64,000 nucleotides of DNA, from the NCBI GenBank assembly GCA_016213775.1, contig JACQZR010000069.1:1-64000 (forward strand), given 5' to 3'. Shown one piece after another: positions 24,317-30,647 of this stretch. Below the pieces are notes generated by a model. It ran no database searches. It had not been told where the DNA came from and worked only from the letters and a program-made list of their open reading frames with translations. This DNA is from Acidobacteriota bacterium (lineage in GTDB: Bacteria > Acidobacteriota > Terriglobia > Bryobacterales > Bryobacteraceae). The translations under genes were made by a program, and so were the position numbers. How positions within the stretch are numbered: the first letter of the stretch is position 1; every line of letters begins with the position of its first letter.

Positions 24317-25888
24317 ATGCTCACCAGGCGCGCGTTTCTCAATACAAACGCCGCCGCGGCTCTGGCCACCCGCCTGTTTGCCGCGCCGGCCGATTCCAAG
24401 ACACCGAATACAGAACTGGAGGCGTTGGGCGCGGTGGCGCTGGCGGAGGCTAAGAAGCAGAAGGCCAGCTACTGTGATATCCGCATCATCCGCTACCGGC
24501 GGCAGGTTCTGAACGTGCGGCTGAATCCCGATCGCGGGAGTGGCAAGACGTTGGAGGTGCCGGGCATTTCCGACGGCGGTTCGTTCGGGTTTGGGGTGCG
24601 CGTGATTGCCAACGGCACGTGGGGATTTGCGGCGTCGCCGATCGTGACGAAGGATGAGATTGCGCGGGTGACGCGTGAGGCGGTGGTGGTGGCGCGCGCC
24701 AATTCCGTGCTGCAGGCAAAGCCCGTGCAGCTTGCGCCGGTGAAGGCGTTTCGCGACCGGTGGCAGACTCCGCATGAACGCGATCCGTTTGCGGTGTCGA
24801 TTGAAGAGAAGCTGGAACTGATTCGCGCGGCGGCGGCCGAAGCTAAGAAGGAGCGGCAGGTCTTTTCGTCGGGCTGCAATTTGTCGTTCCGGTCGGAGGA
24901 CAAGTACTTCGCTTCGTCAGAGGGGTCGTCGATTCAGCAGTTGAATCTCCAGACGTTCGCTGAGGTGAATGCGACGGCGGTGGATCTGAGCAAGGCGCTG
25001 TCGAAGACGCGCAGTTACACGCCGCAACCGGTGACGGCGGGGTACGAGTATGTCCCGGTGATGAACCTGGTGGAAAACGCGCGGCGCGTGCGCGAGGAAG
25101 TGATTGAGCATTTGAAAGCGCCTCCGGTGACTGCGGGGAAGAAGGACCTGGTGCTGCTGCCGTCGCACCTATGGTTGACGATTCACGAGAGCATCGGGCA
25201 TTCGACGGAGTTGGATCGGGCGCTGGGGTATGAAGCCAACTACGCGGGCACGAGCTTTCTCACTACGGACAAGATGGGCAAGCAGAGGATCGGCAGCGAG
25301 ATCGTGAACGTCTGGGGTGATCGTACTTCCGAGCGCGGGCTGGCGACGATTGGCTATGACGATGACGGCGTGAAGGCGACGAAGTGGCCGATCATCGAGC
25401 GCGGCGTGTTCAAGCACTATCAGACGATTCGCGATCAGGCGCACCTGGTGGGAGAGAAGGAATCGCGCGGGTGCTGCTATGCGGACAACTGGGCGAGCGT
25501 GCCGTTCCAGCGGATGCCGAATGTGTGGCTGGAACCGGGGAAGCCTGACACGACGTTGGATGATCTGATTGCCGGCGTGGAGGACGGCATTCTGATTGAC
25601 GGCAACGGGAGTTTCTCGATTGATCAGCAGCGGTACAACTTCCAATTCGGCGGCGATGCTTTCTGGGAGATCAAGGGCGGCAAGAAACGCGGCATGGTGT
25701 CCAGGGTGGCGTATCAATCGCGTACGACGGATTTCTGGACGGCATGCGATGGGATTGCGGGGCCGAGTTACTGGCAGCAGTGGGGCGCTCCGAATGACGG
25801 CAAGGGCGAACCGGCGCAAGTGAATTCGGTGAGTCATGGGTGCTCTCCGGCTCGCTTCCGCAAGATCAACGTGATGGTGACGGATTAG
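24317..25888 (+). CDS. tldD: TldD-type metalloprotease subunit with Tat-type leader
   Basis: The 523-residue protein starts with MLTRRAFLNTNAAAALATR, a twin-arginine-type leader unusual for cytosolic TldD of enterobacteria but common in soil and Gram-negative lineages. Residue 290 begins HESIGHSTELD, matching the HExxxH zinc motif of the TldD catalytic subunit. GGSFGFGVRVIANGTWGFA and the C-terminal GGDAFWEIKGGKKRGMV are further family landmarks. Ten bases separate it from the TldE-like gene. TldD and TldE form a complex that cuts small peptides; in Escherichia coli it degrades CcdA and matures microcin B17. AAAGGA before the ATG is a reasonable Shine-Dalgarno. The downstream OPT transporter suggests a peptide substrate. 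Confidence 0.92.
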   Translation: MLTRRAFLNTNAAAALATRLFAAPADSKTPNTELEALGAVALAEAKKQKASYCDIRIIRYRRQVLNVRLNPDRGSGKTLEVPGISDGGSFGFGVRVIANGTWGFAASPIVTKDEIARVTREAVVVARANSVLQAKPVQLAPVKAFRDRWQTPHERDPFAVSIEEKLELIRAAAAEAKKERQVFSSGCNLSFRSEDKYFASSEGSSIQQLNLQTFAEVNATAVDLSKALSKTRSYTPQPVTAGYEYVPVMNLVENARRVREEVIEHLKAPPVTAGKKDLVLLPSHLWLTIHESIGHSTELDRALGYEANYAGTSFLTTDKMGKQRIGSEIVNVWGDRTSERGLATIGYDDDGVKATKWPIIERGVFKHYQTIRDQAHLVGEKESRGCCYADNWASVPFQRMPNVWLEPGKPDTTLDDLIAGVEDGILIDGNGSFSIDQQRYNFQFGGDAFWEIKGGKKRGMVSRVAYQSRTTDFWTACDGIAGPSYWQQWGAPNDGKGEPAQVNSVSHGCSPARFRKINVMVTD

Positions 25889-25898
25889 GGAGGACATC

Positions 25899-27287
25899 AT
25901 GCTGAGCAAGGATCAGGCAAAGGCACTCGCGGACAAGGTTCTCTCGTTCTCGTCATTTCCCGAATGCGATGTGAGTATCACCGAGACGGAACGGTCGTCG
26001 ATCCGGTTTGCGCTGAACGGCATCACGACGTCCGGGTACACGCTGACGCAATCGATGTCCATCACATGCGTGAAGGAGGGCAAAGTAGGCAGTACCAATG
26101 TGGATGAGTTCGACGATGGGTCGATGCGGAAGGCGGTGAAGAATGCCGAGCAACTGGCAATGATCGCGCCTCCGAATCCGGAACGCGTGGCGCCGTTGGG
26201 ACCGCAGAAATACGACGCCATGGAGAATTTTCCGCTTGGGACCGTGAAGGCACGGAACGACGTTATGATTCCGCATGTGCGGGCCATTATTGAAGCGGCG
26301 AAGAAGAGCAGTCTGGTGGCGGCGGGGTTGTTTGACCGCACTGCGACGATTGCGGCGATTGCCAATAAGGCGGGCAATTTCGGTTTCGGACGGACCACGG
26401 ATTCGAGTCTGTCGACAACGATTCGCACGGCGGATGGATCGAGTTCGGGATGGGCGTCGATGCCCGCTGTTCGCATTGAAGAGATCAACGGCGGCGAGGT
26501 GGCGCGGATTGCCATTGAGAAGGCGCTGCGGTGGAAGAATCCCAAGCGGCTGGAACCGGGCAAGTACACTGTGGTCCTGGAGCCGACTGCCGTTGGTGAT
26601 TTGGTGCCGCAGCTTGCGTTCAGCTTGCTGGCGCGCGGCGCCGAGGAGGGCAGAAGCTTCCTGAGCAAGCAAGGCGGTGGAACGCGGCTGGGCGAGAAGC
26701 TGTTTCCGGAGATGATCACGCTGCGGTCCGATCCGCTGAACAAGTTGTTTTCGGTGATGCCGTGGGGCGGCGGTGGCGGCGGTGGTTTCGGCGGCGGCGG
26801 TGGTGGACGCGGAGGGCGAGGCGGTGGGGGCGGCGTTGGCGAACCCGCGCGTCCGATGACGTGGATTGAAAAGGGAGTTCTGAAGAACCTGGTTTACGAC
26901 CGGTATTGGGCATCGAAGACCGGGCAGAAGGCGACTCCGTTCCCGGGCAATCTAGTGCTGGATGGCGGGGAGAAGACGTTGGAGCAGTTGATTGCCTCAG
27001 TGGAGCGTGGGCTGCTGGTGACGCGATTCTGGTATATCCGATCCGTTAATCCACAAACCGTGCAGTTGACGGGCCTGACGCGCGATGGGTTGTTTCTGGT
27101 GGAGAACGGCAAGGTCACCGGCGCAGTGGTGAATTTCCGGTTCAACGAGAGCCCGGTGCGGCTGCTGCAGAATGCCGTTGCTGCCGGTGTGTCGCGACGG
27201 GTGCGAGGCGGCGAAGGGCAAGGGATGATCGCGCCCGCGATGGTGGTGAAGGATTTCAATTTCGCGAGCGTTTCCGACGCGGTGTAG
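25899..27287 (+). CDS. TldE/PmbA-type subunit with a long polyglycine insert
   Basis: The 462-residue protein is the non-catalytic partner type. It lacks HExxxH and has family landmarks FGFGRTTDSSLSTTIRTADG, SFLSKQGGGTRLGEKLFPE and a C-terminal FRFNESPVRLLQNA. It follows tldD by ten bases. Residues about 289-314 form a low-complexity Gly/Arg tract: about 24 of 26 residues are Gly or Arg, with one Phe and one Val. It falls between PWG and EPARPMTWIEKGVLK, where other members have a short loop. The frame stays open and in phase on both sides, so it is an expressed insert, not a frameshift. It could be a flexible linker at the TldD-TldE interface or an expanded simple repeat. Without a leader peptide of its own, export would require partnering with TldD. 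Confidence 0.88.
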   Translation: MLSKDQAKALADKVLSFSSFPECDVSITETERSSIRFALNGITTSGYTLTQSMSITCVKEGKVGSTNVDEFDDGSMRKAVKNAEQLAMIAPPNPERVAPLGPQKYDAMENFPLGTVKARNDVMIPHVRAIIEAAKKSSLVAAGLFDRTATIAAIANKAGNFGFGRTTDSSLSTTIRTADGSSSGWASMPAVRIEEINGGEVARIAIEKALRWKNPKRLEPGKYTVVLEPTAVGDLVPQLAFSLLARGAEEGRSFLSKQGGGTRLGEKLFPEMITLRSDPLNKLFSVMPWGGGGGGGFGGGGGGRGGRGGGGGVGEPARPMTWIEKGVLKNLVYDRYWASKTGQKATPFPGNLVLDGGEKTLEQLIASVERGLLVTRFWYIRSVNPQTVQLTGLTRDGLFLVENGKVTGAVVNFRFNESPVRLLQNAVAAGVSRRVRGGEGQGMIAPAMVVKDFNFASVSDAV

Positions 27288-27318: not shown

Positions 27319-29316
27319 ATGCAGACCGAAGAGACGCGATCGTTACCAGAGAACGCGTATGCCCCGTTGAAACCGGGAGAGACCTATGAGCCGCTGGTGA
27401 GCGCACGGCAAGCGCCTGCGGAGTTCACGGCACGGGCCGTGTTCTGGGGGTTGCTGCTGTGCGTTATCTTCACTGTGGCTTCGGCGTACAGCACGTTGAA
27501 AGTGGGACAGGGCATGGAGACGGCGATTCCGATCTCCATCCTCTCCATCGGGCTGGCCCGCATGTACAAGAGGCGGTCGACGGTGCTGGAGAACGTCATC
27601 ATGACGGGCTTTGGCGGCGTCGGCGGGGCGGTGGTGGCGGGTGCAACTTTTACGCTTCCGGCACTGTACATATTGAAGCTGGATCCACACCCGTTCCAGA
27701 CGGTTCTCATCGCAATCGCCGGCGGGTGTTTGGGGACGCTGCTGCTGATTCCGTTACGGCGTTACTTTGTGAAGGAGACGCACGGGCAGTTGCCGTATCC
27801 CGAAGCGACGGCGATCACGGAAGTGCTGGTGACCGGAGAGCGCGGCGGATCGCAGGCACGGTTGCTGCTGCAGGCGACTGCCATTGCGGGGGTCTACGAC
27901 TTCCTCGTCACGACGTTTCATGTGTGGAAGGAGAACATTGATTTCCTGTTCACGTCGCCGCTGAAGCGTCTGCCGACGGAAGCGAAGGTGGTGTTCAACT
28001 TCGATGCGATTGGGTTCATTCTCGGGCTTGGTTACGTGATGGGGCTGCGCAGTTCGATGATTCTGTGCGCGGGCGGGTTTCTAGCGAATTTTGCGCTGGT
28101 GCCTTTGATCTGGCTGATCGGATCGCAGTTGCAGGATGTCGCGGTGTATCCGGCGACCGTGCCGATTTCGCAGATGACCGCGTCGCAGATTTTCCGCGGG
28201 TACGTGCGATTCATCGGTGTCGGCGCCATAGCGACGGCGGGAATTTTCGGGATATTGAAGTCGTTGAAGGTTCTGAGCGGGTCGCTGAGTATCGCGTTTC
28301 GGGCATTTCAAGGCGGGGCGGTGGCGAGTGAGCGCACGGATCGTGACATGTCCCTCATGAAGGTGTTGATCGGGGTGATCCTTTGCGCCGTAAGTATCGC
28401 GGCGATTCTCGGGTCGCTGTCGGCGCCGGTGATGGCGGTGACCGCGGGAGTTGCGCTGGTGATGATGTTCTCGTTCTTCTTCACGAGTGTGGGGGCCAAT
28501 GCGATTGCCACAACCGCGCGCAATCCGGTGTCGGGGATGACGATGCTGACCATCATCATTTCGTCGCTGGTGTTGTTGAACTTTGGCGTGTCGGGACGCA
28601 CCGGCATGTTTTTCGTGATGGCGATTGCCGGTTTGGTGTGCACGGCATTGTCGGTGGCGGGACAGGCGGCAACGGACTTCAAGGCGGGGTACTGGATCGG
28701 GTCCACACCGGAAGCACAACAGAAGGCGCGGCTCTTGGGTGGTGTGGCGTCGGCGATTGCGGTGAGCCTGACACTGGTGATGCTGGCGCAGACGTTTCAA
28801 TTCGGCGAGGCGGTGCCCGGGGACAACCGGGTGGTGCTGGCGTCGCCGCAAGCGTCCATCATGAAGGCGCTGGTGGAGGGATTCATGAGCCGCCAGCCGG
28901 TGGCGTGGCTTCTGCTTGCCTGCGGCGGCGTGATCGCGGTGATCATGGAGATGCTGGGTGTGCCGGCGTTGATCTTTGCGTTGGGGATGTACCTGCCATT
29001 GGAGTTGAATTCGCCTGCGCTGGTAGGTGGCGTGTTGAGTCACTTCATCAACAAACGCGCCGATAGGGAAGGTGGAGTGAGTGGACGCAGCATGCGCGAA
29101 CGCGGCGTGATCATCGCATCCGGCCTGATGGCCGGAGGCGCGCTGGGGGGCGTGATTGGCGCGGCGCTGCGCCTGATTCCGTCGTATTCGGAAGATTGGG
29201 TGAAGACTCCGTTCTACGACAACGATCCGATTTCGCAGATCGTATCGACAGTGGCGTTCCTTGCGTTGTGCTGGTACACATGGGCGGGATCGATGAAGAA
29301 GGAGAAGGCTGCATGA
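27319..29316 (+). CDS. OPT-family oligopeptide transporter
   Basis: The 665-residue protein has about 14-16 hydrophobic segments and the OPT hallmark QLPYPEATAITEVLVTGERGG after the fourth helix. Further matches are FNFDAIGFILGLGYVMGLRSS and the late LGMYLPLELNSPALVGG. OPT proteins import oligopeptides or metal-chelate compounds across the cytoplasmic membrane using the proton gradient. The gene lies 31 bases downstream of the TldE-like gene and overlaps the next peptidase-like gene by four bases (ATGA at 29313). This places transport in the same transcript as two proteolytic functions, consistent with import or export of small peptides. The exact cargo is unknown. Confidence 0.93.
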   Translation: MQTEETRSLPENAYAPLKPGETYEPLVSARQAPAEFTARAVFWGLLLCVIFTVASAYSTLKVGQGMETAIPISILSIGLARMYKRRSTVLENVIMTGFGGVGGAVVAGATFTLPALYILKLDPHPFQTVLIAIAGGCLGTLLLIPLRRYFVKETHGQLPYPEATAITEVLVTGERGGSQARLLLQATAIAGVYDFLVTTFHVWKENIDFLFTSPLKRLPTEAKVVFNFDAIGFILGLGYVMGLRSSMILCAGGFLANFALVPLIWLIGSQLQDVAVYPATVPISQMTASQIFRGYVRFIGVGAIATAGIFGILKSLKVLSGSLSIAFRAFQGGAVASERTDRDMSLMKVLIGVILCAVSIAAILGSLSAPVMAVTAGVALVMMFSFFFTSVGANAIATTARNPVSGMTMLTIIISSLVLLNFGVSGRTGMFFVMAIAGLVCTALSVAGQAATDFKAGYWIGSTPEAQQKARLLGGVASAIAVSLTLVMLAQTFQFGEAVPGDNRVVLASPQASIMKALVEGFMSRQPVAWLLLACGGVIAVIMEMLGVPALIFALGMYLPLELNSPALVGGVLSHFINKRADREGGVSGRSMRERGVIIASGLMAGGALGGVIGAALRLIPSYSEDWVKTPFYDNDPISQIVSTVAFLALCWYTWAGSMKKEKAA

Positions 29317-30647
29317 TTACGAACGAAACCATCGCCACCGCGATCCTTGGGATTGATACGCTTTGGGGCGGCGATGTGATGTGCCTGTCGGGCACCGGAA
29401 GATTCATCGCCGATTCGTGGTTCTCCGATGAGCCACTGCCGCTGGCGTATACGCATCCCGCGGCTGCACGCCTGCGCGAGACTGGCGGAGTTTCGGGCAA
29501 GAAGGTTGACCGTGAGGCCGTGGATGCGTACTTGCAAGCGGTGGATGTGGCGGGCACGATCACGAAGCTTTCCGGCGCGGCGAGTTTGTTTGTGCGCAAC
29601 ATGAGCACGAGTCTGGAAGTGATGTGGGACTTGGTGCAGGAGATGTTGGGCAAGGGCGAGCCTGTGCCTTATGAGCGCTGCGTGCGGGCATCCACGGGCG
29701 CTGATCCGGAGCCTTCGGATGCGCGCGGCAAGCGGGAGATGGTGTCGGAACTGCTGGCTCGCGCGGGGTATCCTTCGGCGTCGAACGATGAGTTGCTGGC
29801 GGCGGTGGATGGGTGGCGCAAGGAGCGGATGGCGCCGATGGCGGCGCTGCGATCGCTCGGCGCGGCGGTGATTGCCCGGTATGATGCGTTGTGCGCGCGC
29901 AACCTGATGCCGTACCTGCCGGAAGATCTGGCTGCGGTACCGCGCGCCAACATCAGCTTCGATGCCATCAAGGACGCCTGGTTTTCCGGGTCGATGAATT
30001 ACATTGGGCGCGCGCGCAAGTCCGATGGATCGCCATTGTATGAGGCGAATTACGAGATCAACGCGTCTCTGAAGATATCAGTGCCGGAGTTTGAGCAGTT
30101 GGTAACGCATGAGGTAGTGCCGGGCCACGTGACGACGTTTGCGTATTTGCAGGATCTGTATCATCGCGGGAAGGTGAGTTTTGAGGCGACCGTGCTGACG
30201 ATGAATACACGCGCGGCCACGCTGTATGAGGGGATCGCGAACAACGCGTTGCTGATGGCGTGTGGGGTGACGGATATCTCCGAGTTGGATGACGACGATC
30301 TGAAGATCGGGCTGCTGCTGGCGCTGTTGCAGGATGACGCGAAGAATCAGTCGTCGTATCTGACGTGGAAGGAAGGTGCGGCTCAGGCGGACGTGGCTGC
30401 TACGCTGCGCCGAGACTTTCTGGTTTCTGAAGAGCGTGCGGGCAAGCTATCGGGTGCATGGGGGCGGCATCCGTTGTTGGGGCGGATGTATTTGCCGGGG
30501 TATCGCGCGGGCACGGAGCGCGTGGCTGCGTGGCGCAAGAAGCATTCCGCAAAGGAGATCATCCCGACGCTCTATGGATGCCACGGGCTGGTGGACATCA
30601 CTACTGTGGAGTTGTCGTTAAAGGGACCGGCCGGGTTCTTCGCGTAA
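29313..30647 (+). CDS. DUF885-like putative zinc metallopeptidase
   Basis: ATG 29313 overlaps the transporter stop (ATGA), and the 444-residue product matches no shorter start better. Residues 265-275 read THEVVPGHVTT, a HExxPGH motif like that of DUF885/M32-like metallopeptidases. About 40 residues later, TLYEGIANNALLM supplies a Glu in the place of the third zinc ligand of the family (usually in an E-G-x-A motif). There is no signal peptide, so it is cytosolic. The N-terminal half (LGIDTLWGGDVMC, then ARLRETGG) is helical and not diagnostic. In this operon it may hydrolyse peptides imported by the OPT protein. The family call is moderate; substrate unknown. It ends exactly where the convergent AhpD-like gene ends. 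Confidence 0.68.
   Translation: MITNETIATAILGIDTLWGGDVMCLSGTGRFIADSWFSDEPLPLAYTHPAAARLRETGGVSGKKVDREAVDAYLQAVDVAGTITKLSGAASLFVRNMSTSLEVMWDLVQEMLGKGEPVPYERCVRASTGADPEPSDARGKREMVSELLARAGYPSASNDELLAAVDGWRKERMAPMAALRSLGAAVIARYDALCARNLMPYLPEDLAAVPRANISFDAIKDAWFSGSMNYIGRARKSDGSPLYEANYEINASLKISVPEFEQLVTHEVVPGHVTTFAYLQDLYHRGKVSFEATVLTMNTRAATLYEGIANNALLMACGVTDISELDDDDLKIGLLLALLQDDAKNQSSYLTWKEGAAQADVAATLRRDFLVSEERAGKLSGAWGRHPLLGRMYLPGYRAGTERVAAWRKKHSAKEIIPTLYGCHGLVDITTVELSLKGPAGFFA

Follow-up and report, generated by a model that had tools for sequence, protein, structure and literature searches.

An HExxPGH protein encoded beside an OPT-family transporter points to a separate clade of DUF885-related putative metallohydrolases

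Proteins matching the Pfam entry DUF885 (PF05960) are still labelled 'unknown function', and our search of the literature on DUF885/PF05960 found, among the papers listed, no title or abstract opening on metallopeptidase activity. When the profile of ordinary DUF885 proteins (alignment A3) was compared with the PDB, 3o0y, 3iuk and 3u24 were the only entries matched at E up to 0.001, so these three are taken here as the solved DUF885 members. To our knowledge, OPT transporters occur widely in bacteria, and the substrate is known for few of them. Two other metallopeptidases also bear on the comparison. KIAA0895L is described in PMC10499314 as having a metal motif that is more extended than HExxH, with the third ligand located in an EEG motif distant from it, and PMC5810440 gives HExxxH and Cys ligands for TldD of E. 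coli. A literature search yielded no paper joining TldD with an OPT transporter.

The window analyzed here, the whole 64-kb stretch of DNA, contains the following run of features:

24317..25888, + strand: TldD-like metallopeptidase subunit, by family match, with HESIGH at residues 290-295 and the N terminus MLTRRAFL
25899..27287, + strand: TldE/PmbA-like subunit without HExxxH, by family match
27319..29316, + strand: OPT-family oligopeptide transporter, the frequent partner of M885 (PF03169, 270 bits; TIGR00733, 241.5 bits; both over cut-off)
29299..29304, + strand: AAGGAG, a ribosome-binding-site-like sequence inside the OPT gene, 8 nt before the ATG of M885
29313..30647, + strand: M885 (the name used here), a DUF885-related protein of 444 residues plus stop, by translation

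The ATG of M885 and the TGA of the OPT gene share the letters ATGA, giving a 4-nt overlap. The translation places HEVVPGH at residues 266-272 and bears out the first-pass annotation, which had described a 444-residue HExxPGH protein overlapping a transporter gene. M885 is a real gene, with relatives of 63-71% identity at 80 loci (the best of 172 confirmed) and, by crude pairwise counts, a median dN of 0.26, with dS saturated at 1.75 (72 pairs, 68 with finite dS). A scan for promoters and terminators gave nothing above chance. No match to M885 was found in PHROGs or among phages, and there is thus no sign of a phage origin. No signal sequence is visible by eye at the N terminus. The carriers among the 80 loci are mostly Acidobacteriota, with a few MAGs labelled as other phyla. 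For a record labelled Planctomycetota, the family was found in one of 246 genomes of that phylum, the centre genome itself, and this record may therefore reflect either an isolated transfer or a contig binned in error.

The sole Pfam match of M885 is DUF885, at 17.5 bits, below the cut-off of 32.4. Nothing was found in NCBIfam at E up to 1, and a direct sequence search of the PDB returned chance-like matches only. Relatives were collected in alignment A2, which contains the window protein and 71 of the 80 fetched loci (72 rows). Seven of the loci left out (L011, L019, L045, L056, L060, L076 and L077) have an internal stop in the excised stretch, mostly from overrun past the gene end; L082, which contains X, and L032 were also excluded. 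In L060 the stop apparently lies within the gene. Of the A2 members, 70/72 reach an E of 1 or below with the DUF885 profile, the lowest E being 7.2e-5.

The AlphaFold model of M885 has a mean pLDDT of 90.9 and a pTM of 0.92. The top five Foldseek matches in the PDB are chains of 3o0y, 3iuk and 3u24 (E 2.1e-6 to 1.2e-5), with a modest TM of 0.43-0.53 of the query and rmsd above 10, and the fold as modelled is DUF885-like. Two metallo-carboxypeptidases rank next, the M32 enzyme 1k9x (E 1.3e-3, TM 0.27) and MATCAP 7z5g (E 0.03). Below rank 7 the matches are mostly chance-like (chaperonins, glutamate transporters), and chains of ACE type and of oligoendopeptidase F appear at E above 0.5.

Shorter relatives were found on plasmids. 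A tblastn search of plasmids with M885 gave one distant match, in Deinococcus ficus (23.4%, E 3e-4), and the 398-residue D. ficus protein used as query retrieved 16 plasmid records, its own included, from which ten proteins make up alignment A5. The direct profile comparison of A2 with A3 is weak (34.8%, E 4.1e-4). The match between A2 and A5 is near full length (99.4%, E 3.1e-21), and A5 in turn matches A3 (95.7%, E 9.8e-9). Judged by these profiles, the short relatives bridge the M885 family and ordinary DUF885. The DUF885 profile search suggested in the first-pass annotation thus ended below threshold, yet with a DUF885-like fold and this bridge.

The motifs of M885 are located as follows:

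29349..29441, + strand: N-terminal signature GIDTLWGGDVM..SGTGRFIADSWFSDEPLP of the M885 clade, residues 13-43, from alignment A2
30108..30128, + strand: HEVVPGH, residues 266-272, with H266 and H272 as putative metal ligands and E267 as putative catalytic base; H, E, P, G and H invariant in 72/72 and in 9/9 rows with short relatives
30228..30233, + strand: E306-G307, invariant, with E306 as putative third metal ligand; paired by hhalign with E451-G452 of A3
30501..30512, + strand: Y397-x-x-G400, with Y397 as putative transition-state tyrosine; ordinary DUF885 has the invariant Y535-x-x-G538 at this place

Six-frame translation of the window yields HExxPGH once, as the HEVVPGH of M885; this motif is rare enough to be expected by chance about 2e-5 times per protein of this composition. 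Nine residues (H266, E267, P270, G271, H272, E306, G307, Y397 and G400) are invariant in all 72 rows of A2, and the same nine columns are invariant in 9/9 rows of the mixed alignment A4. In the A2-A3 alignment they face H418, E419, P422, G423, H424, E451, G452, Y535 and G538, each present in 15/15 sequences of A3. The zinc motif had been called DUF885-like, and the invariant residues agree with this reading, with zinc itself as the probable metal. The downstream Glu mentioned with it is best read as E306. Among the 13 invariant columns of A3, an alignment of just 15 sequences, two more are nearly kept in addition to these nine, P362 facing P210 (P in 71/72) and R441 facing R285 (R in 69/72), and two are replaced, Q427 by T275 (72/72) and Y456 by N311 (71/72). 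In the model, a helix of residues 257-267 ends and a helix of residues 272-284 follows, with HEVVPGH at their junction, as expected with a Pro-Gly insertion. The motif lies in confidently modelled, invariant sequence, and the refuting result named in the first-pass annotation, a motif outside the conserved fold, was not seen. Confidence is lower for residues 21-40 (block means 67 and 71), within the N-terminal signature, a 14-column stretch of which is missing in all six short relatives that were aligned.

In 73 of the 80 loci, a set biased to close relatives as the best of 172 confirmed, the gene immediately upstream of the M885 gene is OPT, in the same orientation. Seven loci (L020, L053, L054, L072, L081, L083 and L087) have no OPT there, and the seven genomes lacking an adjacent OPT contain other OPT genes, of 26-45% identity. 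Among 396 genomes drawn evenly from the phylum, 32 match the M885 family at E up to 0.001, and after three weak matches (E 4.8e-5 to 7.8e-4) were set aside, 29 genomes including that of the window remained. OPT adjoins the M885 gene in 16 of these and not in 12, with one at a contig end; some contigs of the sample also belong to the 80 loci (at least G067 equals L054 and G303 equals L083, judged by length and genes), so the two counts are not independent. Within the sample, 23 genomes have an OPT at 64% identity or above, and eight of these have no M885 gene. In 61 close genomes, all five full-length M885 genes have an OPT of 68-100% identity beside them, and three further genomes contain only M885 gene fragments, with an OPT of this kind absent. 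G004 has a sixth OPT of the close type, cut off by the contig end after 2 nt, and the remaining OPT rows are 26-43% identical.

Pairwise distances of M885 and OPT correlate with r 0.63 over 54 loci (none of 999 permutations as high, the top being 0.29), a correlation that would also come from shared descent alone. In the flanks of the 80 loci, with ORFs picked by a G+C rule and many loci shorter than 17 kb, the two members of the pair cluster in 68 and 67 loci, and no protein family beyond the pair was found in more than 12 of the 80. The family seen in 12 is an apparent antisense artefact, the next, in seven, is ABC-ATPase-like by eye, and the neighbours otherwise change. The link between M885 and OPT is frequent, not obligatory. 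Geothrix rubra, for instance, has the M885 gene with no OPT next to it.

The surroundings of the short relatives were inspected in 11 of the 16 plasmid records, seven with a gene table and four without. Peptide-type ABC transporter genes lie within 5 kb of the short relative in five Deinococcus loci and in Lichenicola, and the five Deinococcus loci also carry an IclR regulator and a gene for an Xaa-Pro peptidase or aminopeptidase P, split in two once. In Neorhizobium, an amidohydrolase is nearby, together with permease and ATPase genes of an ABC transporter whose type is not named. In Ensifer NER9 the short relative is accompanied by an oligo_HPY ABC ATPase and by a DUF885 gene of the ordinary kind (176 bits), and Ensifer Corn53 has the same ORFs from the short-relative gene onward. 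No transporter is evident next door in Nocardia and Nonomuraea, where ORFs were viewed without family search.

Two unrelated transporter types thus stand beside two groups of one superfamily, and this association is the chief reason for proposing a role with imported peptides. We consider it reasonably probable that M885 is a cytosolic DUF885-related metallohydrolase that hydrolyses imported peptides. By analogy, H266 and H272 together with E306 would coordinate a single zinc ion, as in a gluzincin-type metallopeptidase, water would be activated by E267, and Y397 would stabilize the transition state. Short peptides would enter the cell through the OPT transporter, and M885 would then hydrolyse them for nitrogen and carbon, possibly from the C-terminal end. 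The recurrent pairing of a DUF885-type protein with OPT and the second pairing of short relatives with peptide ABC transporters in other phyla point to one testable function, in a small enzyme.

Some OPT relatives carry peptide-like metal chelates or peptide-derived compounds. It is conceivable, and the most serious of the less likely readings, that this OPT does the same and that M885 is a specialized amidase freeing the cargo instead of a general nutrient peptidase. The high conservation (63-71%) and the clade-specific N-terminal signature would fit one substrate. A dedicated catabolic route is also suggested by several short-relative clusters that contain 2-dehydropantoate-reductase-like and Gfo/Idh/MocA genes, the reductase-like gene alone being shown in others. 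However, clustering of the flanking ORFs of the 80 loci gives no family beyond the pair in more than the 12 loci of the apparent artefact, and the neighbours of the pair in the window are another peptidase pair.

The position of M885 relative to DUF885 was examined by maximum likelihood, in a tree built from 43 rows: 18 of the 72 in A2, all 10 in A5 and all 15 in A3. One branch sets off the M885 family (98/97), another the short group (99/93) and a third ordinary DUF885 (100/100); the program warns of long branches. With the same warning, M885 lies beside the short group of Deinococcus, rhizobia and others, apart from ordinary DUF885 and not nested among its 15 members. Since M885 has the DUF885 fold and keeps or nearly keeps 11 of the 13 invariant columns, it might be regarded as an ordinary though divergent DUF885 protein with no clade of its own, but this is improbable. 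It has about 440 residues against 562-609 in the solved DUF885 chains, M885 and all six short relatives scanned (13.1-22.7 bits) fall below the Pfam cut-off of 32.4, and the tree separates the groups. As far as sequence and predicted structure go, the evidence supports M885 as a separate, so far uncatalogued clade of DUF885-related proteins. The idea of a distinct metallopeptidase clade differing from typical members, raised in the first-pass annotation, agrees with the 17.5-bit score and with the tree, 'metallopeptidase' being a reading of the motifs and the model.

The OPT linkage at many loci would also be consistent with M885 being a non-catalytic binding or accessory protein of the transporter. 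We regard this as highly improbable, as residues of catalytic type are invariant in 72/72 and the M885 gene occurs without an adjacent OPT in 12 of 29 genomes. Membership of peptidase family M32 (carboxypeptidase Taq), to which the Foldseek match to 1k9x might point, has next to no likelihood and is refuted as far as sequence can do so, since hhalign against 12 M32 proteins gave a probability of 0.3% and the HESQSR that follows HExxH in the 15 M32 loci read is absent from M885.

In the window, hydrolysis of imported peptides by M885 may be accompanied by a step outside the membrane. The TldD and TldE genes are separated by 10 nt, and 31 nt lie between TldE and OPT. The N terminus of the TldD-like protein appears Tat-like by eye, with RR kept in the three relatives viewed, and Cys477 is a candidate third ligand by position. 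Pairs of TldD and TldE occur elsewhere, in G024 (83/71% identity), G001 (69/53%) and G018 (47/38%), with no OPT or M885 gene in the 11-13 kb around them. Conversely, TldD/TldE is found beside OPT-M885 in none of the 80 loci, 43 of which extend at least 3.3 kb upstream of OPT, and it is likewise missing from the sequence available upstream of the OPT genes in G004 and G026. As each pair is seen apart elsewhere, two separately conserved pairs stand side by side here. Possibly the four genes TldD-TldE-OPT-M885 form a peptide-scavenging operon, peculiar to this genome among the loci examined. The apparently Tat-exported TldD with TldE may trim peptides outside the membrane first, and a joint periplasmic and cytosolic route may be proposed. 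A broader picture, which we put forward tentatively and hold to be doubtful, is that OPT and M885 form a self-contained two-gene unit of peptide import and hydrolysis, built around a new peptidase family and spread from phylum to phylum, which is joined here to a Tat-exported TldD/TldE protease in one operon that trims outside, imports and finishes inside.

Compared with the DUF885 structures 3u24, 3o0y and 3iuk, M885 has the same fold as predicted, the HExxPGH, EG and YxxG motifs, and nearly always P210 and R285. It differs in its length, its sub-cut-off score, its own N-terminal signature and clade, the T for Q after the motif, the N for Y after EG, and its frequent pairing with OPT. The short plasmid proteins of Deinococcus, Ensifer, Lichenicola, Neorhizobium, Nocardia and Nonomuraea, which bear, where annotated, the label 'hypothetical protein' or 'DUF885 domain-containing protein', are alike in length class (383-409 residues), in the near full-length profile match and, in Deinococcus, Lichenicola and Ensifer, in their peptide-transporter neighbours; in contrast to M885, they show 17-22% identity to it, ABC instead of OPT transporters and a separate group in the tree. 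The M32 carboxypeptidase 1k9x resembles M885 weakly in fold, whereas the motifs differ and no sequence homology was detected. The MATCAP/TMCP tubulin carboxypeptidases (HExxxH) match M885 in Foldseek with probability 1.00. MATCAP, which we take to be KIAA0895L, resembles M885 in its metal motif, which extends beyond HExxH, and in a distant third ligand of EG type, putative in M885; no sequence similarity is shown, and the substrate of MATCAP is eukaryotic tubulin. The TldD-like protein of the window has, like E. coli TldD, HExxxH, a candidate Cys ligand and a TldE-like partner without the motif, but it is set apart from the TldD/TldE heterodimer by its Tat-like N terminus and by a gene run next to a peptide transporter.

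Partial copies of the gene for M885, the DUF885-related protein with an HEVVPGH motif, occur in three close relatives:

L157 (genome G010): partial M885 gene, covering about residues 73-348
L158 (G031): partial M885 gene, covering about residues 336-425
G009:C655:1904-1990: partial M885 gene, covering about residues 328-356

These fragments, apparently remnants of the gene or assembly breaks, suggest that it was lost repeatedly. An OPT-family oligopeptide transporter of the kind encoded directly upstream of M885 is absent from all three genomes.

Copies with 65-67% identity to M885 (L060, L079, L080, L081 and L087) are all found in MAGs, labelled as Elusimicrobia, Gemmatimonadales/Gemmatimonadetes, Eisenbacteria and Planctomycetota; they may reflect inter-phylum transfer or misbinned contigs. 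One further locus was found in a phylum sample genome:

L160:1044-2999 (G261), (-) strand: weak match to the M885 family profile, HESYPGH present

A Pfam search with this locus gave no match at E up to 0.001, and its product is perhaps another uncatalogued relative.

The window also carries a TldD/TldE pair (24317-27287), whose TldD member has a Tat-like N-terminal sequence. No such sequence is evident at the N terminus of TldE, which has a Gly-rich insert at residues 290-312 and might be carried across the membrane as a TldD-bound partner.

The distant, short DUF885-like genes recur on plasmids in a cluster with a peptide ABC transporter (L187, L189-L194). Most of these loci also contain a 2-dehydropantoate-reductase-like gene, a Gfo/Idh/MocA gene and a further gene, which in Deinococcus encodes an Xaa-Pro peptidase and in Ensifer and Lichenicola an ordinary DUF885 protein. 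The cluster looks like a catabolic route for a single compound.
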